Shown here in pieces: positions 18,960 through 57,844 of a stretch of DNA of 64,000 nucleotides. The stretch spans positions 62,001 through 126,000 of the forward strand of contig CAMAXE010000009.1 of the NCBI GenBank assembly GCA_945862145.1. The letters are read 5' to 3'. Numbering within the stretch: the first letter of the stretch is position 1; each line of letters begins with the position of its first letter. The notes under the pieces were generated by a model. It was given only the letters and a program-made list of their open reading frames with translations, was not told the DNA's origin and made no database searches. Made by a program: the position numbers and the translations under genes. Origin of the DNA: Klebsiella pneumoniae. Lineage in GTDB: Bacteria > Pseudomonadota > Gammaproteobacteria > Pseudomonadales > UBA5518.

Positions 18960-19920
18960 TTTTAACCGTCGTCAAAAGTAGAGGCTACGCGGAGAGCGCC
19001 AGTTTCTGTTTCGGGGTGATTCCTCCAAGGGCCATGTTCGGCCGTTCATGGTTGTAGGTCCATAGCCACTGCGTGGCAAAGTCCTGCACCTCGTCGATGG
19101 ATTCGAAGAGGTAGTGGCTGAGCCAGTCGTATCGCACGGTGCGGTTGTACCGCTCGACATAGGCATTTTGTTGCGGCTTGCCGGGCTGGATGTGCTCGAT
19201 TCGAATGCCATGGCGCTCCGCCCAGCTCGCAAGAGCCGCACTCACATACTCCGGCCCATTGTCGCAACGAATCGCAAGCGGCTTACCACGCCATTCGATG
19301 ATCTGGTCCAGCGTTCGGATCACCGGCTCGGCAGGCAGCGACAGATCAACCTCCATGCCGAGCCCCTCGCGGTTGAAGTCGTCGATGACGTTCAGCAACC
19401 GGTAACTTCTGCCGTCGGCCAAGGAATCGTGCATGAAGTCTGTCGACCAGGTTTGGTTGATCGCCGCTGGTACGGCCAGTACCTCGGGCCGCTCGCGGAC
19501 GAGGCGCTTCTTCGGCTTGATCCGCAGATTCAGCTCGAGCTCGCGATAGATCCGATACACCCGTTTGTGGTTCCACACGTAGCCCCTGACGTTGCGCAAG
19601 TACAGGAAACACAGGCCAAAGCCCCAGTTGCGCTGATTATGGGTGAGGCGCAGCAGGTGATCGGCTATTTCCTCGTTCTCGCTCGAGAGCCGCGGGCTGT
19701 ACCGGTAGCAGGCCTCACTGATGCCGAACGCCGCACAGCCCACCCGGATCGGAATCCCTCTGTCCTTCACCGCTTCCTTCGCTATCTCGCGCCGACGAGA
19801 TGGCTTCACCACTTTTTGCGAGGGCTTCCGAAACGATCTCGGCCTTCAGACGCTCCTCGGCGTACATCTTCTTCAGGCGACGGTTCTCCTCCTCGAGCTC
19901 CTTCATCCGAGCCATCAGCG
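18960..19920 (-). mobile_element. IS3-family element, 5' truncated
   Basis: Contains a complete OrfB (18985-19812) and only the C-terminal coil of OrfA (19915-19800, ARMKELEEENRRLKKMY and [14 protein letters not shown]) in the overlapping frame typical of the frameshifted IS3 transposase. Sequence left of OrfA residue about 1 of this coil is replaced at 19920 by an alpha/beta-hydrolase tail repeat. The left end is thus lost. Confidence 0.85.
18985..19812 (-). CDS. IS3-family transposase OrfB
   Basis: The 275-residue DDE transposase subunit starts with [15 protein letters not shown], an HTH_21-type region follows ([36 protein letters not shown]), then the integrase core. Catalytic residues are Asp in TWSTDFMHD, Asp in [10 protein letters not shown] and Glu in [10 protein letters not shown]. 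The C-terminus [17 protein letters not shown] is typical. It would normally be made as an OrfAB fusion by frameshifting; OrfA is truncated here. Confidence 0.9.
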
Positions 19921-29047: not shown

Positions 29048-29133
29048 GCGCTTTGCGCAGATGGCAGTGCACGCGCTTCGCGCAGATTGCAGTGCACGCG
29101 CTTTGCGCAGGTGGCAGTGCACGCGCTTCGCCC
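29048..29133 (+). repeat. 25-bp tandem repeat, three full units
   Basis: Units at 29048-29072, 29073-29097 and 29098-29122 share the pattern GCGCTTYGCGCAGRT, then GCAGTGCAC, each with one to three differences. A partial fourth unit (29123-29133) opens the left arm of the structured element. The GCGC parts can pair within each unit. Confidence 0.8.
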
Positions 29134-29260
29134 CGTGGACTCCCGCGTCTCGCTCACGCCGCTGCACATCCCTGTGCAGCGACTGCCGCATCCGCGAGAT
29201 CGTTCCCGACGATCTCACGGATGAAGGCCGCTCCCCGCGGGAATCCACGGGGCGAAGCGC
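29123..29260 (+). repeat. Structured two-hairpin repeat element, copy A
   Basis: The outer arms 29123-29147 and 29236-29260 are complementary over 25 bp with one mismatch. Inside, CGCTGCACA/TGTGCAGCG (29160-29168 and 29173-29181) form a 9-bp stem with a TCCC loop, and 29190-29203 with 29209-29222 form a 14-bp stem with one mismatch. Copy B at 57684-57821 has the same order, loop and linker sequences but different stem bases that still pair. Confidence 0.85.
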
Positions 29261-29298
29261 TCGATCGGATGCTCTGCCTGCGGTGAAGAGGCCACGCT

Positions 29299-32087: not shown

Positions 32088-33368
32088 ATGACGATCAAAT
32101 CCGGAGTCGACACGGCTCAATCCTCCTCTGAAACGTCAGCTGCCCCCGGGGTTTCGGCCTCGACTGAACCGACTGCGGATGCGTGGCCCGCAGCCGAAGT
32201 GCTCGAGGTCATACCCACCCCACGCCGCCTCAGTGCGGGCGCGCGCCTGCGCCAGCGCCTGCAACCGGCTGGCGCGCTGCTCGCCGACGCGGCCGGAGAC
32301 CTGAAATCGAGGCTCTCGGCCATCGACTTCAAGCAGGTCAAGAGCGTGATTCCGGGGTTCGGCGGCAATCCGGAACTGCCCGTGGACGAGGACGGCGCGG
32401 CAGCGAACGAATCGACCCCGGGCGAGGCCGCAGCGGAACAACCCGCGCCGGACGCGGAGCGCTCGAACGGGCGTTTGCGCGAGCTGGCGGTGGTGTCGCG
32501 AAGCAAGTTGAACTCCTCGTTGGCGCAGATCGCCGTTGGTTCAGCTCCGATAATCAACAAGGGGCAGCAGGTTGCTGAAAGAATCGCCGCGCGGCTCGCA
32601 ATCCGTGCGGACTTAGCATTTTTACCCAAGGCGAGCAAGATCAAGGGCGCTTTCCGTGACGTGCAAGGGTTCGTACAAAGGATAGTCATCGACGAACCCT
32701 TGGCGGCTGGAGCCCAAGCGGCTGCGTGGGTCGATAGTCACGACCCCAAGGGGAGATTTGCAGCAGTCACCACCCGGATGACCGCCTGGAACGAGGAAAG
32801 GGCCGGGGACGTTCCCGCAGATGAGCCTGTGACGGACGCCGCGACCGCCCCAACCGTGGAGGTCGCGCCGCGCAGGCGCTCGCGTGCGACAAAGCCAACG
32901 GATGCACTGAAACCCTCAGCAAGGAAGCCCGCAGCAAGGAAGCCCGCGGTAAAGGAACCCGCGGCAAAGGAACCCGCGGCAAAGGAGCCCGCGGTAAAGA
33001 AACCCGCGGCAAAGAAACCCGCAGCAAGGAAACCCGCAGCAAAAAAGCTGCGCTCGGCGCCGGAAGTCGAGCCAGACGCGCAGGTCAGTGCAGCCGAAAA
33101 CAAGGCACCAGCTGCGGGCAATAAAGCCAAACCCGCGGCAACACCCAAGAAGAAGCCGCAGATTGCATCGGCGGAGTCGGTTGCGGAGTCGCCCACCCCC
33201 GTCAAGCGTGTACGGGCGCGGACGCCTGGCAAGGCGACCGAAGCCAGACCCGGGGCCGCAAAAAGAACCAAAAAGCCGCAGTCCTTATCGGCAGAGGCTG
33301 CAGGTGAGTCAACAACCATGGCCAGCCCTGCAGACGCGCAAAGCATTCGCGCAACGATCGAAGACTGA
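32088..33368 (+). CDS. Lys/Ala/Pro-rich protein with histone-H1-like tail
   Basis: The 426-residue protein starts with a polar Ser/Glu-rich region, then a helical segment (about residues 90-220, including SRSKLNSSLAQIAVGSAPII, QQVAERIAARLAIRADLAFL). From about residue 278 on it becomes a K-P-A repeat tail rich in AAKEPA/AAKKPA units, like PhaF/AlgP and histone H1. This suggests nucleic acid or polyanion binding, not an enzyme. A start at 32070 (MSQGTT) is also possible; I prefer 32088 because GGGA lies about 8 nt before it. It is first in the SPFH cluster and 88 bp from the next gene. Confidence 0.7.
   Translation: MTIKSGVDTAQSSSETSAAPGVSASTEPTADAWPAAEVLEVIPTPRRLSAGARLRQRLQPAGALLADAAGDLKSRLSAIDFKQVKSVIPGFGGNPELPVDEDGAAANESTPGEAAAEQPAPDAERSNGRLRELAVVSRSKLNSSLAQIAVGSAPIINKGQQVAERIAARLAIRADLAFLPKASKIKGAFRDVQGFVQRIVIDEPLAAGAQAAAWVDSHDPKGRFAAVTTRMTAWNEERAGDVPADEPVTDAATAPTVEVAPRRRSRATKPTDALKPSARKPAARKPAVKEPAAKEPAAKEPAVKKPAAKKPAARKPAAKKLRSAPEVEPDAQVSAAENKAPAAGNKAKPAATPKKKPQIASAESVAESPTPVKRVRARTPGKATEARPGAAKRTKKPQSLSAEAAGESTTMASPADAQSIRATIED
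32922..33050 (+). repeat. 15-bp coding minisatellite (K-P-A units)
   Basis: Eight to nine near-copies of a 15-bp unit (for example GCAAAGGAACCCGCG) encode the pentapeptide A-K-E/K-P-A. Unit differences are mostly AAG/AAA and GAA/AAG swaps. Copy number could vary. Confidence 0.7.
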
Positions 33369-33456
33369 GCCGCGCCACCATCCACTACCCTGCCAGCGGC
33401 GGGGTCCAACCCAGAACAATGTCCACGGAGCCGCATTCGGGGCGGAGTAACCAGCG

Positions 33457-34275
33457 ATGAACGGCATTTTGAAGGGCTTCAAGCGTAAGGATAGCGCGGT
33501 GACAGGGCTGAATGGGCTCGGCCGGGTTTCTTCTCAGCCAAGCGGCGGGCCATCCGCTGCGGCCTCAGCCAATGCGCCCGTCAATCCGGCATTGCATTTC
33601 GGCGCATCGGGCCTAAAGGCTCTGTACGTCCGAGGGTTTGCCGGTGCAGTGGAAATAGAGGCCCATGACACTCCAGAGGTCCTCGTCGAGGTACTCGGTT
33701 ATGAGCCTCGCAGCACGAAGCTCACGGTCAACCTTCAGGGGGAAAGCCTCCAGATCGGGCTCAAGTCGCTTTTCAATCCTGCCAGGCCCTGGCGCTTCAT
33801 CCTGCCATTGCGATGCATGCTGCGGCTCACGGTGCCGCGATCATTGAGCCTGCGATGCGCGACGACATCCGGAAATATCCGGGTGCAGGGAGTCAGGGGA
33901 GACCTGGTACTGGAAACCGAGAGTGGGAAGGTAGAGGTCGATGCGCCGTGTCGTTCCCTGGCGATCGTCGCTGAAACCGGTGACGCCGATCTTCGCGGCC
34001 TGGTGGGCCCGCTGTCTTATAAGGCGGCGTCGGGCTGGCTTAAAGCTGCGTGGGTCGAGGTCCCGGACAGCGGCATCATTGAAATCAGGAAGAGCAAGGG
34101 CGTGACCGAACTGGCGCTCCCTGAGAACGCCTGCATGCGACAGCGTTTCACGCTGGGCCCCGTCGGATTTATGAATGAGTTTGAGAGCGATGCCAAGGCG
34201 CTGCTCGCACTGACGATCGCGAGTCGGACCGGTAATGTGGCAATTCGAAAGGTTCGCTCGCGAAGCATCGAGTGA
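33457..34275 (+). CDS. DUF4097-like beta-solenoid protein
   Basis: The 272-residue protein has a short polar N-terminus (residues 1-45) then repeating strand patterns of the DUF4097/putative-adhesin type: LKALYVRGFAGAVEIEAHDT, LTVPRSLSLRCATTSGNIRV, LVLETESGKVEVDAPCRSLA, IVAETGDADLRGLVG, and a last IASRTGNVAIRKV. No signal peptide is visible, so it may act inside the cell or at the inner membrane. It sits 43 bp upstream of the binding-protein gene. Confidence 0.75.
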   Translation: MNGILKGFKRKDSAVTGLNGLGRVSSQPSGGPSAAASANAPVNPALHFGASGLKALYVRGFAGAVEIEAHDTPEVLVEVLGYEPRSTKLTVNLQGESLQIGLKSLFNPARPWRFILPLRCMLRLTVPRSLSLRCATTSGNIRVQGVRGDLVLETESGKVEVDAPCRSLAIVAETGDADLRGLVGPLSYKAASGWLKAAWVEVPDSGIIEIRKSKGVTELALPENACMRQRFTLGPVGFMNEFESDAKALLALTIASRTGNVAIRKVRSRSIE

Positions 34276-34318
34276 AGCGAAGCTCTATCTCCGGTTTGCT
34301 CCGAGGCATCTGAATTCA

Positions 34319-35791
34319 ATGGCAAAAAAAAGAGGGTTCTTCTCGCGACTTCTGCTGTTGTACAGGATCTTCATCCGGGCAGCCGTGCTCGGAACCCTCG
34401 CCTACGTGGCCTACCTGTGGGTGGGGACCATGGCAAAACCCATCACTGTCGGCCTGATCTTCCCCTTGACGGGAGCGATGGGGGCAGATGGCACTGAGGC
34501 CAGCCAGGGCGTTCGATTCGCAATCGATGAAATCAACGCGCGTGGAGGTCTTCTGCACCACACGATAGATGTCGTCGAGGTGGACCTGGCTGCGTCCGAT
34601 GACAAGCCGTCTCTTGTCGAGAAGCTCATGGTCGAGGGCGGCGCGGACGTCATTTTCGGCTGCGTGATCCCGGGATGTAGACGCGAGCTGCGCGAAATCC
34701 TCACCCATTACCAAGGGCTTCTCGTTTACCCGTTTCACCTCGAGGGCCTTGAGGGAATCGCGGAACATCTTGGCGGGGTCACGGTGGATGATAGAAACGG
34801 ACAGACCTCAGGAACTGCGCGGGGGGTGAATTTTGTCCGTTCGCTTTACTCGCAGTTCATTTCCACAAAGACAAAGGTTGGGGCTCCAGGCGAACTGGTG
34901 CCGGTAGTCGAGCCAGAGGAGCCGGAGCCCGAGCCCGTCACGCAGAAGCCGGGCGGTGACCGGCGCGTGCTGGCGACAGGCCCAATGCCCAATCAGGATC
35001 TCCTCCCCGGGATCCGTTGGGCCATGGAGCGCTTCGGTCCCCGGGTGTTTCTGGTATTTAACGAATCCCTTTACGGTAGGGTTGCCGAGCAGATTGCGGA
35101 AAACGCTGTTATTGCGGGCAAAGGCAGCGTGGTTGGCAAAGCCGTCCTGGACGCGACTCGCGATGGCCTCGGAGAGGCGGCTGCCGAGCAGATCGCACGG
35201 CTCCGGCCAGACGTCATCATCAATATGGCGTTTGGCAGCGAGAATGTTTCCTTGTACAAGACGCTGGACGTTCTGGTCCCGCGTGACAGGCGTATCCCCA
35301 ATCTCATAGTGCACGCGGGAAACGTGGACCTGAAGGAAATCGGCTGGGAAACCATTGCGAGCGGCTATGTGATGGGTTTCTACGACGCAGAGTCCGAGAC
35401 GAAGGAAAACTCGGCATTCAAGGCCCGGTTCGCTCGCGTGTATGGCGACGCAAAAGAGCCTGACACTGAATTCTATCTTGCCTATTCGAGTTTCATGGTG
35501 TGGGCGACCGCGGTCAATAAAGCCAAGTCCGCCGAGCCCGATGCAGTGATCGAAGCGCTACCGGGGGTCATGCTTGATCTTCCATCCGGCCCCGAGCGGA
35601 TCTCACACAAAAGCCTCCATCCGATACTCAGGCCGTTAATCCTGCAGATCGACGATCTTGGCAAGCTCAGGCTTGTCTGGTCAGCGTCCAAGCCCATCGA
35701 ACCGGTGGCGTTGTACCCAGTCAAGGACAGGGAAAGCTGGGAAAAGTTCCTGGTTGGATTGCATCGCCAATGGGGTGGTTCGTGGCGATGA
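34319..35791 (+). CDS. Membrane-anchored urea/amide-type periplasmic binding protein
   Basis: Peripla_BP_5-like protein of 490 residues. The first 37 residues hold a hydrophobic helix (LYRIFIRAAVLGTLAYVAYL) with no clear cleavage site, so it is probably a membrane anchor. Then comes TVGLIFPLTGAMGADGTEAS, a pattern of UrtA/AmiC-type sensors, LVEKLMVEGGADVIFGCVIP and PDVIINMAFGSENVSLYKTL. An insert rich in Glu/Pro (VVEPEEPEPEPVTQKPGG, about residues 200-217) interrupts the domain. There is no permease or ATPase nearby, so it may act as a sensor feeding the SPFH pair. It overlaps the HflK-like gene as ATGA. Confidence 0.8.
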   Translation: MAKKRGFFSRLLLLYRIFIRAAVLGTLAYVAYLWVGTMAKPITVGLIFPLTGAMGADGTEASQGVRFAIDEINARGGLLHHTIDVVEVDLAASDDKPSLVEKLMVEGGADVIFGCVIPGCRRELREILTHYQGLLVYPFHLEGLEGIAEHLGGVTVDDRNGQTSGTARGVNFVRSLYSQFISTKTKVGAPGELVPVVEPEEPEPEPVTQKPGGDRRVLATGPMPNQDLLPGIRWAMERFGPRVFLVFNESLYGRVAEQIAENAVIAGKGSVVGKAVLDATRDGLGEAAAEQIARLRPDVIINMAFGSENVSLYKTLDVLVPRDRRIPNLIVHAGNVDLKEIGWETIASGYVMGFYDAESETKENSAFKARFARVYGDAKEPDTEFYLAYSSFMVWATAVNKAKSAEPDAVIEALPGVMLDLPSGPERISHKSLHPILRPLILQIDDLGKLRLVWSASKPIEPVALYPVKDRESWEKFLVGLHRQWGGSWR

Positions 35792-37521
35792 ACTCCTCGA
35801 CAGGCCCGTCCGATGCCGAAGCGCAGCGCATCAGACGCCAGCTTCGCCGACGCGGGTTCGCGGAATCCGCGCGCAGGTTTGCAAGGTGGCTTGCCAGCCC
35901 CTTTGTCGCCCTCGGTAACGTCATTGGCAGGATTGCGGCGTATCTTGCTCAAGCCTCCGAGCGTTCGTTGCGTCGATTGCTCGCCGCAGTGGCGGCGAAC
36001 CCATTGCTGCAATTCCTCTTTGGGAGGGGACTTCGCCGGGCCGTGATGGTCGTTGCCGGGTTCGCGGGTCTGGTTGCCCTGGTTATCGACAACGTTTTCA
36101 TTGTTCCGGTCGCAGACAATGCAGTGATTCTCCGGCTTGGCGGACTGGCCCGAACCGTAGGCCCCGGGCTGGCCTTCAAGGCTCCCTTCGTTGAGCAAAA
36201 ATACTTCGTCAACACGCAGACGCGGCTGCAGGAGAACTTCGGTTTTCTCCAGTACACGCCGCCCCTGAAGCCACGGCCGGAACGTCAGGTCGATGCGATT
36301 GAGTATGGCGCGGAGGCTGCGGAACAAGCGCTAGGGGGCTATCGGAAAGGGCTTGACAGTGGCCTGATCACCGACCAACTTCAGCGCACCCCACTGCTGC
36401 CGCGCGATTACCTGGTATCGATTAACCCCCTGCCGCCTGAAGCGCCCGACCCGCAGGCGGAAACCAAGGAGGTTGCGGAGCACATCGAGATGCAGCACGA
36501 GGCGCTGGAAAACATCATTCCCCCGGACGGGAAGGTGCCCGTTCCCGATGAAATGCAGATGCTGACCGGGGACCTGAATATCGTTTATGTCACCTGGTCG
36601 GTTCAGTACGAGATTGTCGACGCGAGGCAGTACCTGTTCGGGGGCGCTGACGTCACGGAAATCCTGCGCAGCACAGCGATCGTGGCGATGAGAACGGCCA
36701 TAGGCGACAGGCTCGATTCCGAGCTCCTTTCCCGGGGCCGACAGAAAATCGAGGAAGAAGTAAAACGCTTCCTGGAGGAAGCGCTGGAAGGCTACCAGCT
36801 GGGGCTGAGCATCAAGGAAGTCATCATCCTGGATGCAAACCCGCCTGACGAAGTGCAGGCGGCATTCCATATGGTCAACCAGGCCAAACAGGAGATGGAG
36901 CGGGAAATCAACCGCGCGCAAACCGAATACAACAGCATCGTGCCGCAGTCATACGGCCAGGCAAAGCGCCTGCTTTCCGAGGCGCGGGCCTACTCGATGG
37001 AACTGCGTAACCGGTCGGTCGGCGAGGCAGCGCGGTTCTCAGCGATACTCAAGGAATATCGGTCTGCGCCCGATGTCACGCGGGACCGCTATTACATCGA
37101 GGCAATGGAGGACGTGTATTCGCGCACGTCGGTCACCTTGATCGATACCGACCTCAAGGGAATCCTGCCTGTGTTTGAGGGGCGCGGATCATCCGCCCTC
37201 GCCAACCCGGCGGAGGCTGAAATGGCAGCCCTGCAGGCGCAGGCCGCCAAATTCGCTCCCGCGGTGCCGCCGGTGGAACCGATCGAACCTGTCGAGCAAC
37301 CCGCGCGGCTGCCACACTCGACAGCCGTCAGAAAGCTTCCGTGGGAGCCACAACCGACGCCGGCTCTGGCCCCCGTACCCACTGTCCCCTTGACCGAGCA
37401 AAACCGGCCGCAGGACGCAGCGCCGGTGGCCAAGAAAGTGACGCCTGTCGGGCAGACATTCGAAGCGCCACCCGGCGCGACGAATTCAAACCGTGCGGCG
37501 CGCGGCCCGAGTGCGCCCTGA
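35788..37521 (+). CDS. HflK-like SPFH/band 7 protein
   Basis: The 577-residue protein has an N-terminal cytoplasmic Arg-rich region, one membrane segment (about residues 84-104, MVVAGFAGLVALVI), and an SPFH domain beginning FIVPVADNAVILRLGGLART. This is followed by EGYQLGLSIKEVIILDANPP (an SPFH/HflK hallmark) and a coiled-coil (HMVNQAKQEMEREINRAQTE). A Pro/Ala-rich C-terminus extends beyond HflK length (about 420). The start at 35788 overlaps the previous stop as ATGA and it couples to the HflC-like gene by one base. Classical HflK regulates FtsH; no ftsH is nearby. Confidence 0.88.
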   Translation: MNSSTGPSDAEAQRIRRQLRRRGFAESARRFARWLASPFVALGNVIGRIAAYLAQASERSLRRLLAAVAANPLLQFLFGRGLRRAVMVVAGFAGLVALVIDNVFIVPVADNAVILRLGGLARTVGPGLAFKAPFVEQKYFVNTQTRLQENFGFLQYTPPLKPRPERQVDAIEYGAEAAEQALGGYRKGLDSGLITDQLQRTPLLPRDYLVSINPLPPEAPDPQAETKEVAEHIEMQHEALENIIPPDGKVPVPDEMQMLTGDLNIVYVTWSVQYEIVDARQYLFGGADVTEILRSTAIVAMRTAIGDRLDSELLSRGRQKIEEEVKRFLEEALEGYQLGLSIKEVIILDANPPDEVQAAFHMVNQAKQEMEREINRAQTEYNSIVPQSYGQAKRLLSEARAYSMELRNRSVGEAARFSAILKEYRSAPDVTRDRYYIEAMEDVYSRTSVTLIDTDLKGILPVFEGRGSSALANPAEAEMAALQAQAAKFAPAVPPVEPIEPVEQPARLPHSTAVRKLPWEPQPTPALAPVPTVPLTEQNRPQDAAPVAKKVTPVGQTFEAPPGATNSNRAARGPSAP

Positions 37522-38633
37522 TGTGGAACCTCGCTTTCTATGCCATCGTTGCGATATTGGTGATCCTGTTGAGGTTCGGGACGTTCATCGTCTTCGAGGG
37601 ATCTAACGTCATCATCACCCAGTTCGGCGAGATCGTCGGACCTCGCTATGACAAACCCGGTGTGTATGTCCGCATCCCGCTGATCCATCACGCCAACTAT
37701 TTCGACGTTCGACTGCAGGTCTGGGAGGGTTACCAGAATTACGTCCCCACGAGCGACAAACTGTATGTGGGCGTGGAATCTGTCGTTGTCTGGAAAATTG
37801 CTGACCCCGCGTTGTTTCTCGAGTCACTGGGCACCGAAGAGAAAGCCCGGGACAGGATCGAGAGCATTCTCCAGGGCGCGATCAAGGATGTGGTGTCATC
37901 ACACGCTCTTGTGGACACGGTGCGGAGCACCAACAACGTGCTTGCCGCGAGGGGCACGGCCGATAAAATCGATCATGCGGATATCACCGACGGCATGTCG
38001 GCCAAGGTTGAAGATGACATTCTGTCGGACCTGGAATCCGTGTCGGTCGGTCGGGTACACCTGACGAACCAGATGCTGGAGATGGCCGCCACCGACGCCG
38101 CACCGCTGGGGATCAAGATTTATTCAGTTCTCATAAAAAAATTGAGTTATCTCCGGCCCGTAGAATTGATGGTGTACGAGCGCATGATTTCCGAGCGGCT
38201 GCGCGTTGCCGAGCGCCTGCGCTCCCTCGGTCGCAGTGAAAGCGAACGGATCCGTGGAGAGGCTGCGCAGCGAGTCCAGGAAATCATCTCTCCCGCGGTC
38301 AGGGAGGCAGAAGCCATCAAGGGTCAGGCGGATGCGGAAGCTACCGCAACCTACGGAAAAGCCTTTGGTCAGGATCCGGATTTCTACCGTTTCTGGCGCA
38401 CCCTCGCCGCCTACCGCAAAGCACTTCCGGAGCAGGCGGCAATCATCGATTCGCTGGATTCCAATTTCTTTCGCATGATGCGCGGGCGGTCTGATTCGGA
38501 ATCTACCGCGTCAGCTGCCGTGAAACAGGCCCAACCGCCGGTCCCGGACGTGGAAGCGGCGGTTGCCAGCGAGGCTGCGAATCACGCCTCGGGTGACTCT
38601 GTCCCGCTGCCGATTCCCGATGTCGAGAGGTGA
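37521..38633 (+). CDS. HflC-like SPFH/band 7 protein
   Basis: The 370-residue protein has an N-terminal membrane helix (LAFYAIVAILVILLRFGTFI) and SPFH domain with VFEGSNVIITQFGEIVGPRY, LESVSVGRVHLTNQMLEMAA and IYSVLIKKLSYLRPVELMVY. A coiled coil follows (ERLRVAERLRSLGRSESERI) with the HflC-type ending YRFWRTLAAYRKALP. HflC is usually about 330 residues, so the C-terminus is extended. Its ATG overlaps the HflK-like stop (TGATG). The pair likely forms a hetero-oligomeric cage in the inner membrane. Confidence 0.88.
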   Translation: MWNLAFYAIVAILVILLRFGTFIVFEGSNVIITQFGEIVGPRYDKPGVYVRIPLIHHANYFDVRLQVWEGYQNYVPTSDKLYVGVESVVVWKIADPALFLESLGTEEKARDRIESILQGAIKDVVSSHALVDTVRSTNNVLAARGTADKIDHADITDGMSAKVEDDILSDLESVSVGRVHLTNQMLEMAATDAAPLGIKIYSVLIKKLSYLRPVELMVYERMISERLRVAERLRSLGRSESERIRGEAAQRVQEIISPAVREAEAIKGQADAEATATYGKAFGQDPDFYRFWRTLAAYRKALPEQAAIIDSLDSNFFRMMRGRSDSESTASAAVKQAQPPVPDVEAAVASEAANHASGDSVPLPIPDVER

Positions 38634-38642
38634 GTTGTCCTC

Positions 38643-39422
38643 ATGTTTGACGCTATCACCCTTGCCTATGTCGTCCTCGGGGCTGCATCGGGCTTCTTGT
38701 CTGGCTTGATCGGTGGTGGCGCCGGCATCCTGATCGTTCCGGTATTGAGCCTTTTCGGGCAACACCCGATAGCGGGTCCGGCGTCCGCCGTTGCGGTTGC
38801 GATGTGTTCCGTCACCGCGGCGCTGCAGATCCGCAGGCGGTTCGTGGGCGCCGACGCCATTGCTCCGCGCCCGGGCCTGATCCTGTGCGGTTCCGCATTC
38901 CTGACCGCTCATCTAGGCGTCGGCATGAACCAATTTGCGCCGATTTTTGCGATACCTCTGACGCTCGCGCTGTTCGTGTTCCTGAGTCTCGATCTCACCG
39001 CTCGTGTTCATCACGGTCTGGTCGGCCGCACCGTCATCGGAGACCGGAGTCCGAACGATTTCTTCGGGCGCTATGTGCTGTTCGGGTCGGTGACGGCGAT
39101 GTTCGGAGGCATCGTGGGTAGCGGGGGAGGGCTGTTGCTGTTCCCGTTACTGCACGCCTACTGCGGAATGACGACCCGGGAGGCGGTGTATTCGTGTCTG
39201 CTCATGATGCTTGGCTCCTCGCTGTCCTCCGTGAGCACGCAGATCTACCTTGGCACGCCTGATTACACCGTGGCGTTGCCGCTGGGCATCGGAGCGATCC
39301 TCGGTGGCTACTTCGGGGTGCTGGCCATAGAAATGGTGTCCGAGGATGCAATCCGGACGATAGCGCGGGCAATGTTGCTCGAACTCGGCCTCTTCCTGCT
39401 GATCGCATCTTTCTTGCTCTGA
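38643..39422 (+). CDS. TauE/SafE-type permease
   Basis: The 259-residue protein has about eight hydrophobic helices. The paired motif GFLSGLIGGGAGILIVPVLS (residues 17-36) and FGGIVGSGGGLLLFPLLHAY (later half) are typical of the TauE/SafE family of sulfite or small-anion exporters. The gene is 9 bp after the HflC-like gene, so it is in the same operon. The anion it moves is unknown. Confidence 0.88.
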   Translation: MFDAITLAYVVLGAASGFLSGLIGGGAGILIVPVLSLFGQHPIAGPASAVAVAMCSVTAALQIRRRFVGADAIAPRPGLILCGSAFLTAHLGVGMNQFAPIFAIPLTLALFVFLSLDLTARVHHGLVGRTVIGDRSPNDFFGRYVLFGSVTAMFGGIVGSGGGLLLFPLLHAYCGMTTREAVYSCLLMMLGSSLSSVSTQIYLGTPDYTVALPLGIGAILGGYFGVLAIEMVSEDAIRTIARAMLLELGLFLLIASFLL

Positions 39423-39432
39423 CCCCCTCGCA

Positions 39433-40197
39433 GTGCCACGCGTGGATTACGAAACCAACGCGTTGCATGAGCTCCTGGCCTGGCAGAAAAAGATGCAGCG
39501 CCCGCCGGGGCTCTCGACTGGACTGATACGCGGCGTCCAGCAGCGTTTGAGTCGGCTAGTCCCAGACGTAGTTCACGCGGCCCTTGCTGTCTCGGTCAGG
39601 GAGGTTGCACGCGGGGTGCTGGCGGGCTCTCGATTGGTTGTCAGTCCACCGCTGCTGCAGGGCTCGCTGGAAGACCGTGAAGCCGGGGTTCGATCCGACA
39701 TCGACCGCTACAGTCGCAGCGCTGCGATCGAAGGCGGTCTCACCGGGGCGGGTGGCCTGCTCCTGGGGCTTGCTGACTTTCCGCTCTTGCTGGGCATAAA
39801 ACTCAACTTTCTGGTCCAGGTGGCTGCTCACTATGGTTTCTCCAGCGAGGAATTCAGTGAGCGCCTGTACATGCTCTATGTTCTCCAGCTCGCGTTTTCC
39901 AGCGATCAGCATCGCGGACTCGCTTACGGGCGACTTACCGACTGGGCATCGCGCACGGAGAGCCTCCCGTGCTCCATCGACGCGTTCGACTGGCAGACCT
40001 TCCAGCAGGAGTACCGTGATTACATGGACGTGGCCAAACTCGCTCAGCTCGTACCGGTCATCGGGGCGCCGGTTGGCATCGTGGTGAACGGCCGGTTGAT
40101 GCGCAGGCTCGGCTCCACAGCCATCCACGCGTACAGGATGCGTTGGTTCTCCGACGCTGCGCCGGCACCGGCCTCCCGGGAGCGGAAAATTCCCTGA
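39433..40197 (+). CDS. EcsC family protein
   Basis: The 254-residue protein has the EcsC domain: AAIEGGLTGAGGLLLGLADF, PLLLGIKLNFLVQVAAHYGF, and KLAQLVPVIGAPVGIVVNGR in the C-terminal third. EcsC proteins accompany ABC transporters and other membrane systems, with unknown biochemical role. It ends the cluster, 10 bp after the TauE/SafE gene. It may associate with the membrane through the amphipathic helices; no signal peptide is visible. Confidence 0.85.
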   Translation: MPRVDYETNALHELLAWQKKMQRPPGLSTGLIRGVQQRLSRLVPDVVHAALAVSVREVARGVLAGSRLVVSPPLLQGSLEDREAGVRSDIDRYSRSAAIEGGLTGAGGLLLGLADFPLLLGIKLNFLVQVAAHYGFSSEEFSERLYMLYVLQLAFSSDQHRGLAYGRLTDWASRTESLPCSIDAFDWQTFQQEYRDYMDVAKLAQLVPVIGAPVGIVVNGRLMRRLGSTAIHAYRMRWFSDAAPAPASRERKIP

Positions 40198-40296
40198 TGC
40201 GGCGAGCGTGCCACTCAGCAGTGACCATTCATCTTCGGTAAGCCCGATCTGATCTCCCGTGCGGAGCCGGGTCTGGTGGGTGCTGACGACAAAATG

Positions 40297-41733
40297 TTAC
40301 TTGGCTCCGGCGTCTTGCAAGAGCGCGTTGAAGCGTTGCGATGCGGCCAAATCGTGGATGCGCGGCAGGCGTGCTGAACTCAGCGTGAGACCGGGCAGGC
40401 GCGCCAACAGCGCGGCCATTTGCTGCTGCGCTGCTTTTATGTCGCCGCTCGCGGCCTGTAGCGCGATCAGCACTAACACGTTGCGCGGCACCTCCGGGGC
40501 CTCTTCACAGAGGCTCGTCGCTAGCTGTTTTCCTGCCGCAATATCGCCAATCAACCAATAAGCTACCGCCAGTTCTCGGCGCCAGCGCGGGTGGCTTGCG
40601 TCCTCCGCGCCGGCAGCCATGGCGTTGCGTAACAGCCTTAGGCCGATATCTGCTGGTCCCAGCTGAATATCGCAAATGGCCAGCAGCGCCAAGGCCGGTG
40701 CAAAGTGACCGTTTTGCACCAGTGCCTCGCTTGCCAGTTGCCGGGCGAGGTGAAAATCGCCCTGTACATCCTGCGCCACGAGCGCTTTCACCGTGCGTGC
40801 AACATAACTACGCGGATCCAGTGCCACCCCACGATTCGCCTGTACCAGCATTTCTGTGATGGCGTGCGGGGCCAAGGCCAGGGGCTCGTATTCCGCCACC
40901 CGAAACAACGCAAAGCCCAACAGGCTGTGGGCCATTGCGTTATCAGAGTCGCGCGCGACCGCGGCGCGCAAGCTTGCCACCGCCACTCCGCTGCGCTCCA
41001 AGGTGGCCATATGGAAAATGCCGGCGGCCTTGTTCAAGAGTTCCGGCACGCTGAGGTTGGCATCCTCGGTGTCGCGCAGTTGGCTGAACAACGCCGCTTT
41101 GATGCGGCTGCGAACGGCTCCAGTGACGGACAACACGATGGCGTCTTCGAGACCAAACAAGTCTTCCAGTTGGCGGTCGAACCGTTCGGCCCAGAGCTTG
41201 GTCGAGGAGCTGCATTCCACGAGAGTGAAAGATAGCCACAGCCGGTTGCCGGCAGACTGAATAGTGCCTTGTATGACAAAGTCGGCATTTCCGGCATCTG
41301 CAGACAGGACCGTGATGGCCGAATTTCGCACTAGCGCGCCGTCGATCTCCGCTCTTATTCCTTCGGCAATGGCGTTAACGTTGTCATTGTCGCTGAGTAC
41401 TCGAAAAGGCTCGACGTGAATACAGGGTGGGTTCCGATGGCCGGTCCGCGGTGCGCCTGCGACATAGCCAAGTGGAGTCTGGCTGGGCATGGATGCAGGT
41501 TTTGGCGGGGTGCGGCGTAGGCCTTCCGGGGTTATTTTGAGCGTCCAAGCCACCAGCAACATGATCGGAAAACCTGCCGCAAGACTCAGAAACAGACCAA
41601 CGTTCAGCCATTTTGGTAAGTCGAATGCATCGACCAGCGGTGGAAAAACCTGAACTGAGGCGAACGCCACAGCGCAGTAAATGCTCCCTGTTTTAATGAC
41701 CTTGCGTCGTTTTAACTCTTCAATGAAGCTCAC
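40297..41733 (-). CDS. TPR protein with cyclase-type N-terminus (FlgO/TolB-like)
   Basis: The 478-residue protein begins SFIEELKRRKVIKTGSIYCA and a hydrophobic pair (AFASVQVFPPLVDAFDLP, FLSLAAGFPIMLLVAW), the pattern found in front of adenylate cyclase and TolB-like proteins. No catalytic cyclase domain follows. Residues 100-190 resemble the FlgO/TolB-like nucleotide domain (IHVEPFRVLSDND, FVIQGTIQSAGNRLWLSFTL, WAERFDRQLEDLFGLEDAIV). The rest is TPR-like helices. The start is GTG 41733, with GGAGGG six nt upstream; an upstream ATG (41811) would remove it from that site. Confidence 0.75.
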   Translation of the reverse strand: MSFIEELKRRKVIKTGSIYCAVAFASVQVFPPLVDAFDLPKWLNVGLFLSLAAGFPIMLLVAWTLKITPEGLRRTPPKPASMPSQTPLGYVAGAPRTGHRNPPCIHVEPFRVLSDNDNVNAIAEGIRAEIDGALVRNSAITVLSADAGNADFVIQGTIQSAGNRLWLSFTLVECSSSTKLWAERFDRQLEDLFGLEDAIVLSVTGAVRSRIKAALFSQLRDTEDANLSVPELLNKAAGIFHMATLERSGVAVASLRAAVARDSDNAMAHSLLGFALFRVAEYEPLALAPHAITEMLVQANRGVALDPRSYVARTVKALVAQDVQGDFHLARQLASEALVQNGHFAPALALLAICDIQLGPADIGLRLLRNAMAAGAEDASHPRWRRELAVAYWLIGDIAAGKQLATSLCEEAPEVPRNVLVLIALQAASGDIKAAQQQMAALLARLPGLTLSSARLPRIHDLAASQRFNALLQDAGAK

Positions 41734-41841
41734 CAATCCCTCCGTTGGGAAAATCGTAGTCTGAGCGACTGCAGTATAGGCTTCGGAGACGCTGCGTCTC
41801 GTCGTCTGCATGCTAGTGCGCAGGGGTAGCGTTGATCGCTT

Positions 41842-42258
41842 TCACCCATTTGCTGGCAGGGTTTGCTCGTCGAAGGCCGGTTCGAAATCCGCGCCAGTAG
41901 CGTTGAACAGTCGCGGTCCAGTAGATACAGGGCAGCGGTGTCATCCCACAAGCGCGTGCCGAGCCACTGCGACGGATCGGCGTTAAGCGCTGTCTGCAAC
42001 ACCCCCGGCATACCTGCGCCGGCGAGCCGATCGACCATCTCCTGGGTGAGCGGATAAGACGTCACGGCTGCCGGCAAATCGACCCACACCGCACTTCGAA
42101 TCGTGCGCAGAAATTCATCTGCCTTGCCGCATTCAGGTTGATCGTAGACGCAGTTGAAGTTGTCCGGATTGTTCTCAGCCAGCGGTCGGCCCGACGCCAC
42201 GACGCGACGCATCAATGGTCGAAGCATCGGCGCGTACTGAACAAAATTGTTATCCGCC
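41842..42258 (-). pseudogene. Nucleoside hydrolase-like gene, truncated and frameshifted
   Basis: The frame begins without a start at about 42258 (ADNNFVQYAPMLRPLMRR), continues with PLTQEMVDRLAGAGMPGVLQ and RLWDDTAALYLLDRD, the C-terminal part of inosine/uridine nucleoside hydrolase-like proteins. A single-base shift near 41908 moves the coding from DRD to LFNATGADFEPAFDEQ. The catalytic N-terminal Asp cluster is absent. The next gene's stop is directly upstream. Confidence 0.55.
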
Positions 42259-42263
42259 AGTGC

Positions 42264-57665: not shown

Positions 57666-57683
57666 GGTCCTGACGCAGCACCC

Positions 57684-57821
57684 GCGATTCCGCCCGAGGC
57701 CTCTCCCCGCTCGCTCACGCCTCGGCACATCCCTGTGCCGAGGCTGCCGCTTCCGTGAAATCGTTACCGACGATTTCACGGAAGAAAGCCGCTCTCGGGA
57801 AGAGGCCCCGGGCGGAATCGC
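57684..57821 (+). repeat. Structured two-hairpin repeat element, copy B
   Basis: Outer arms 57684-57704 and 57801-57821 pair over 21 bp with one mismatch. The first inner stem (57720-57729 and 57734-57743) has 10 bp and the same TCCC loop as copy A, and the second (57750-57764 and 57770-57784) has 15 perfect pairs. Linkers (CTCGCTCACG, GCTGCCGC) match copy A. Confidence 0.85.
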
Positions 57822-57844
57822 TCGATTGATTCCAGTGCCGTCCT

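Follow-up and report, generated by a model that had tools for sequence, protein, structure and literature searches.

The SPFH proteins HflK and HflC are encoded as an adjacent pair, and to our knowledge the contents of bacterial SPFH cages besides FtsH are largely unknown. The urea site of the solute-binding protein UrtA has been defined by structure and mutagenesis, and comprises Trp120, Ser122, Tyr141, Gln144, Glu146, Tyr190, Asn246 and Ser274 (PMC10392092). SPFH genes have been reported as patchy and context-specific in Pseudomonas aeruginosa (PMC13086221), so a lineage-restricted SPFH operon would be unsurprising in itself. Here we describe a run of seven genes within positions 32088-40197 of a 64,000-nucleotide stretch of contig CAMAXE010000009.1 (assembly GCA_945862145.1; the whole stretch is hereafter the window), the unusual aspect of which is the coupling of a pocket-altered, membrane-anchored UrtA-fold protein to an HflKC-type pair. 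We tentatively read the seven genes as a lineage-specific inner-membrane SPFH scaffold operon, giving this somewhat less than an even chance. A literature search found no description of this gene set, in agreement with a preliminary description of the window made from its sequence alone, which knew of no such system.

Open reading frame calls and Pfam and NCBIfam searches confirmed seven genes on the plus strand (Table 1) with the order and domains originally proposed, and the arrangement is repeated in a sister species (G005), represented by a metagenome-assembled genome (MAG) labelled uncultured Gammaproteobacteria (contig CAJADV010000047.1, locus L099). Gene order, overlaps and gap lengths are all equal between the two species, the DNA being ~92% identical and the proteins 78-95% identical. 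Because these features have been kept despite ~8% base divergence, the clustering is beyond chance, and ratios of nonsynonymous to synonymous substitution rates (dN/dS) of 0.19-0.47 for each of the seven genes indicate that all are likely to be under purifying selection. The gene for the Lys/Pro/Ala-rich protein is not equally long in the two species, their alignment containing 26 gapped positions. The run had been called tight throughout, which holds from the binding-protein gene onwards, where this gene and the HflK-like gene share an ATGA overlap, the HflK-like and HflC-like genes share TGATG, and gaps of 9 and 10 nt precede the TauE/SafE and EcsC genes. It does not hold for the first two genes, which are followed by 88 and 43 nt respectively. 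A promoter scan of the real sequence gave no improvement on shuffled sequences; terminator-like sites numbered 17 versus 7.7 in shuffles, were mostly intragenic and were not used as evidence.

The binding protein matches Peripla_BP_5 (E 2e-56) and, among known structures, chains of UrtA (E ~1e-22) and AmiC (E 5e-20) over both lobes, with a ~67-residue, partly Glu/Pro-rich insertion at the lobe junction. It scores 156 bits against a curated UrtA cut-off of 493. In an alignment of 49 sequences, the counterparts of the eight urea-site residues are V116, P118, Y137, H140, E142, S250, F305 and H332; only Tyr141 and Glu146 are kept, and the other six are replaced (Trp120 by Val, Ser122 by Pro, Gln144 by His, Tyr190 by Ser, Asn246 by Phe and Ser274 by His), the last three being mapped by alignment and motif (SDY, NGD and SxS) and not checked against structure. 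All four hydrogen-bonding residues are among those lost. The same six changes are present in the sister species, and 47 relatives (25 sensor-type and 22 others) mostly retain the urea-site residues. With six of eight positions replaced, including every hydrogen-bonding one, the protein is unlikely, as judged from its sequence, to bind urea. No canonical UrtA was detected in this genome. The urea or amide link first suggested for the locus was therefore rejected on the loss of the pocket residues, and the rationale for assaying the locus under ammonia or urea stress falls with it. The companion claim, that an anchored binding protein stands beside two SPFH proteins with no ATP-binding cassette (ABC) transporter, is supported: urtBCDE permease and ATPase genes were found neither inside the seven-gene run nor immediately adjoining it. 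It was too broad to say that the locus has no transporter, since the TauE/SafE protein is itself a permease.

The binding protein has as its closest relatives not ABC-transporter subunits but anchored UrtA-like partners of chemoreceptors and sensor kinases (L035-L058). The genes that follow the examined anchored relatives encode a methyl-accepting chemotaxis protein (MCP), a dCache/PAS protein (dCache kinases) or a cyclase, and one anchored paralogue of this sensor type is present in the same genome (contig 19, L035). A different genus has an SPFH gene of stomatin type that shares 4 nt with the beginning of a UrtA-like gene, and a dCache-PAS protein gene follows (L050 and L054; G652:C49 and G564:C103). 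These observations lend some weight to the earlier suggestion of a sensor-and-scaffold complex, but as the run has no signalling output (kinase, MCP or cyclase), the locus can be called a sensor only conditionally. Such a system, in which the binding protein would detect a small non-urea periplasmic ligand and alter the SPFH dome or open the TauE/SafE exporter, is consistent with the sensor partnerships of its relatives, with a sequence match to UrtA/AmiC structures that still covers both lobes, and with pocket substitutions that are equal in both species, as a new specificity would predict. We nevertheless consider it unlikely, given that the run encodes no output domain, that the dN/dS of the binding protein (0.47) is the highest of the seven, and that the four hydrogen-bonding residues are gone with no sign of a replacement ligand.

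Both SPFH proteins pass the corresponding NCBIfam cut-offs (HflK-like, TIGR01933, 236 bits versus 159; HflC-like, TIGR01932, 220 bits versus 134) and fall well short of PRK10930 and PRK11029, which are narrower models of enterobacterial type. The HflK-like protein has an Arg-rich N-terminus of ~85 residues, a Pro-rich C-terminal tail and an insertion of ~100 residues in its SPFH domain, sitting in a loop that is ~20 residues long in free-standing HflK proteins. In a maximum-likelihood tree, the HflC-like protein groups with free-standing second HflC proteins of the same order (support 100/100), apart from the HflC of Escherichia coli and that of the genome itself. The HflK-like protein stands alone on a long branch, and long branches make exact placements in this tree unsure. 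The HflK-like protein and free-standing HflK both have an EFGF-type motif and, in the conserved VxWxVQY strand, a Trp; canonical HflK has neither. A separate HflKC pair lies on contig 29 of this genome, which together with the phylogeny was the ground for rejecting a canonical HflKC identity for the window pair. Many families of the order have a second HflK/HflC pair that differs from canonical HflKC (L067-L082, L089-L096), and no functional description of these pairs was found in the literature. In one other genus a TauE gene adjoins a free-standing HflK/HflC pair in divergent orientation; this arrangement and the stomatin-type/UrtA-like overlap noted above hint, independently, at a pairing of SPFH proteins with TauE and with binding proteins.

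Table 1. Genes of the seven-gene run, with positions given in window coordinates
Gene product	Position	Strand	Features
Lys/Pro/Ala-rich protein	32088..33368	+	426 aa; no transmembrane segment (TM); KPAAKEPA-type tandem repeats in C-terminal half
Toastrack (DUF4097/LiaG-like) protein	33457..34275	+	272 aa; no TM or signal; predicted cytosolic
Anchored UrtA-like binding protein	34319..35791	+	490 aa; TM 12-30; insertion 146-214; urea-pocket residues replaced
Divergent HflK-like SPFH protein	35788..37521	+	577 aa; TM ~88-106; insertion ~153-255
HflC-like SPFH protein	37521..38633	+	370 aa; N-terminal TM 6-24; C-terminal extension
TauE/SafE-family permease	38643..39422	+	259 aa; ~7 TM-like segments (hydropathy)
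EcsC-family protein	39433..40197	+	254 aa; GTG start; two hydrophobic stretches

Among the remaining four proteins, the TauE/SafE permease (Pfam 91 bits versus a cut-off of 33, E 1e-25) and the EcsC protein (242 bits versus 30, E 7e-72) exceed their Pfam cut-offs. The Toastrack protein, a domain defined in PMC11237479, matches LiaG with E 1.3e-9 but at 38 bits versus a cut-off of 285, and Pfam DUF4097 at 20.8 versus 22.9 bits; the Lys/Pro/Ala-rich protein has just a weak, composition-driven HC2 match below cut-off (E 2e-4). An anti-phage defence system was considered and rejected for want of PADLOC support, the only match being a partial, weak one of the EcsC protein to the candidate family PDC-S29 (E 5e-6 over 35 residues). 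The proteins nearest to this EcsC in the phylum sample (44-50% identity) come from one distant unrelated family and have no SPFH, TauE or binding-protein neighbours, and EcsC was discarded as a tracer of the set because these closest kin stand alone.

The binding protein was searched for in 56 relatives and in samples of 369 genomes from the class and 398 from the phylum, and the HflK-like protein in overlapping samples drawn from the family (6 genomes), the order (391) and the class (335). Within these genomes, full-length orthologues of the two proteins occur solely in this genome (G000) and in G005; the four other congeners searched lack them, so that one of five congeners carries the cluster. 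Co-occurrence in other genomes, the check proposed in the preliminary description, was thus found in one sister species and nowhere else among those searched. A scan of contigs across the species for the HflK-like protein, weak in that it used just two peptide patterns, returned the sister MAG alone, and a plasmid search gave HflK-type and UrtA-type matches, none of them full-length among the matches listed. This distribution bears on whether the run is simply an operon of convenience, in which the SPFH pair and its neighbours share a transcript with a TauE/SafE exporter and EcsC but each product acts separately, with no single complex. The non-recurrence of the set, the existence of EcsC homologues and HflK/HflC pairs on their own elsewhere, and the looser spacing of the first two genes all accord with that explanation, but the genes for the binding, HflK-like and HflC-like proteins are linked by conserved stop/start overlaps, and of the members of the genus only the two cluster-bearing genomes have EcsC, which was undetected in the other four congeners. 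We regard it as doubtful.

The cluster has a G+C content of mostly ~59-62%, compared with ~64-70% for most of the remaining sequence of the 22-52 kb stretch, and the genes immediately downstream are lower still. Acquisition of the cluster from elsewhere is possible. The congeners offer no clean empty site, the orthologous flanking genes sitting in differing contexts.

Several features of the surrounding sequence were also recorded. The sister species lacks ~1.8 kb 3' of the EcsC gene (within window 40198-42261), including a gene for a TPR-type protein (40297-41811), and a flavin adenine dinucleotide (FAD) oxidoreductase gene there comes ~230 bp after EcsC. An imperfect palindrome of ~150 bp at 29114-29265, also found at 57675-57826, has a predicted hairpin energy of -99 kcal/mol. 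It is part of a family of dispersed repeats, of which this genome and three further members of the genus contain many copies. The copies are mostly 76-86% identical and resemble a miniature inverted-repeat transposable element (MITE) or a repetitive extragenic palindromic (REP)-type element. A transposase-like open reading frame, whose IS3 OrfB type is judged solely from how the sequence looks, lies on the minus strand at 18985-19812.

Our proposal for the locus is a membrane scaffold built on the SPFH pair. Co-assembly of the HflK-like and HflC-like proteins is favoured because an adjacent pair is how heteromeric HflKC is encoded, and the two would most likely form a periplasmic dome of HflKC type, separate from the one that is bound to FtsH. 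Hydropathy predicts one N-terminal TM each in the binding, HflK-like and HflC-like proteins, and from these anchors and the HflKC analogy we infer that the UrtA-fold domain would be periplasmic, on the same side as both SPFH domains; complex formation, cargo, ligand and function are put forward here on the same footing. The cargo most likely includes the anchored pseudo-binding protein, either as an integral structural part or client, or as the binder of a non-urea ligand by way of its rewritten cleft and the insertion at its lobe junction, and probably includes the TauE/SafE permease. This permease and EcsC may be membrane partners enclosed or organised by the dome, with the Toastrack and Lys/Pro/Ala-rich proteins as putative cytosolic adaptors. 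A more specific version is rather improbable as it stands: a one-time solute-binding protein, its pocket rewritten, would now be permanently anchored as a component or gate in a periplasmic cage of HflKC type, and this cage would house a TauE/SafE exporter instead of FtsH. Several points weigh against the scaffold proposal: the set is confined to one genus among the genomes searched, adjacency alone is no proof of a complex, the seven-gene run encodes no ATPase, protease or signalling domain, and AlphaFold models were poor (predicted local distance difference test scores, pLDDT, of 36 and 34), as only two sequences are available. If correct, the operon offers concrete candidate SPFH clients in the form of an anchored binding-fold protein, a TauE/SafE permease and EcsC, and a case in which a urea-binding fold has apparently been uncoupled from transport and ligand and set in a scaffold context.

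Compared with described systems, the locus shares parts with several. Toastrack and SPFH/Band-7 domains have also been reported as partners in Psp/Lia operons, and Toastrack has PspA-free contexts (PMC11237479), raising the question of a membrane-stress module resembling a PspA-free Psp/Lia system, in which Toastrack and SPFH proteins would stabilise the membrane under envelope stress. However, the run has no PspA, PspC, LiaI/LiaF, two-component system or PadR gene, the Band-7 partner in that study is flotillin-like, and its text contains neither EcsC, nor the term SPFH, nor an HflKC-type pair with a UrtA-like protein. A Psp/Lia system proper was rejected because its core genes are absent from the run, and the membrane-stress explanation seems to us very unlikely. 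The SPFH pair resembles HflK-HflC in its adjacent hflK-like then hflC-like genes and in its N-terminal TM and SPFH domain with following helical region, but differs by the SPFH loop insertion, the long termini and the lack of FtsH or an hfq/hflX context. It is closer to the free-standing second pairs as a two-gene SPFH unit with the shared HflK motifs and HflC branch, although those have no binding-protein, Toastrack or EcsC homologue nearby. The binding protein belongs to the same family as UrtA and AmiC and aligns with them overall, differing from UrtA in its membrane anchor, insertion, altered urea site and missing urtBCDE neighbours. With the anchored sensor partners it has in common an N-terminal hydrophobic anchor and an alignment reaching the same C-terminal end, but where most of those proteins keep the pocket residues and the examined ones precede an MCP, a dCache/PAS protein or a cyclase, the window protein has lost these residues and precedes a pair of SPFH genes.

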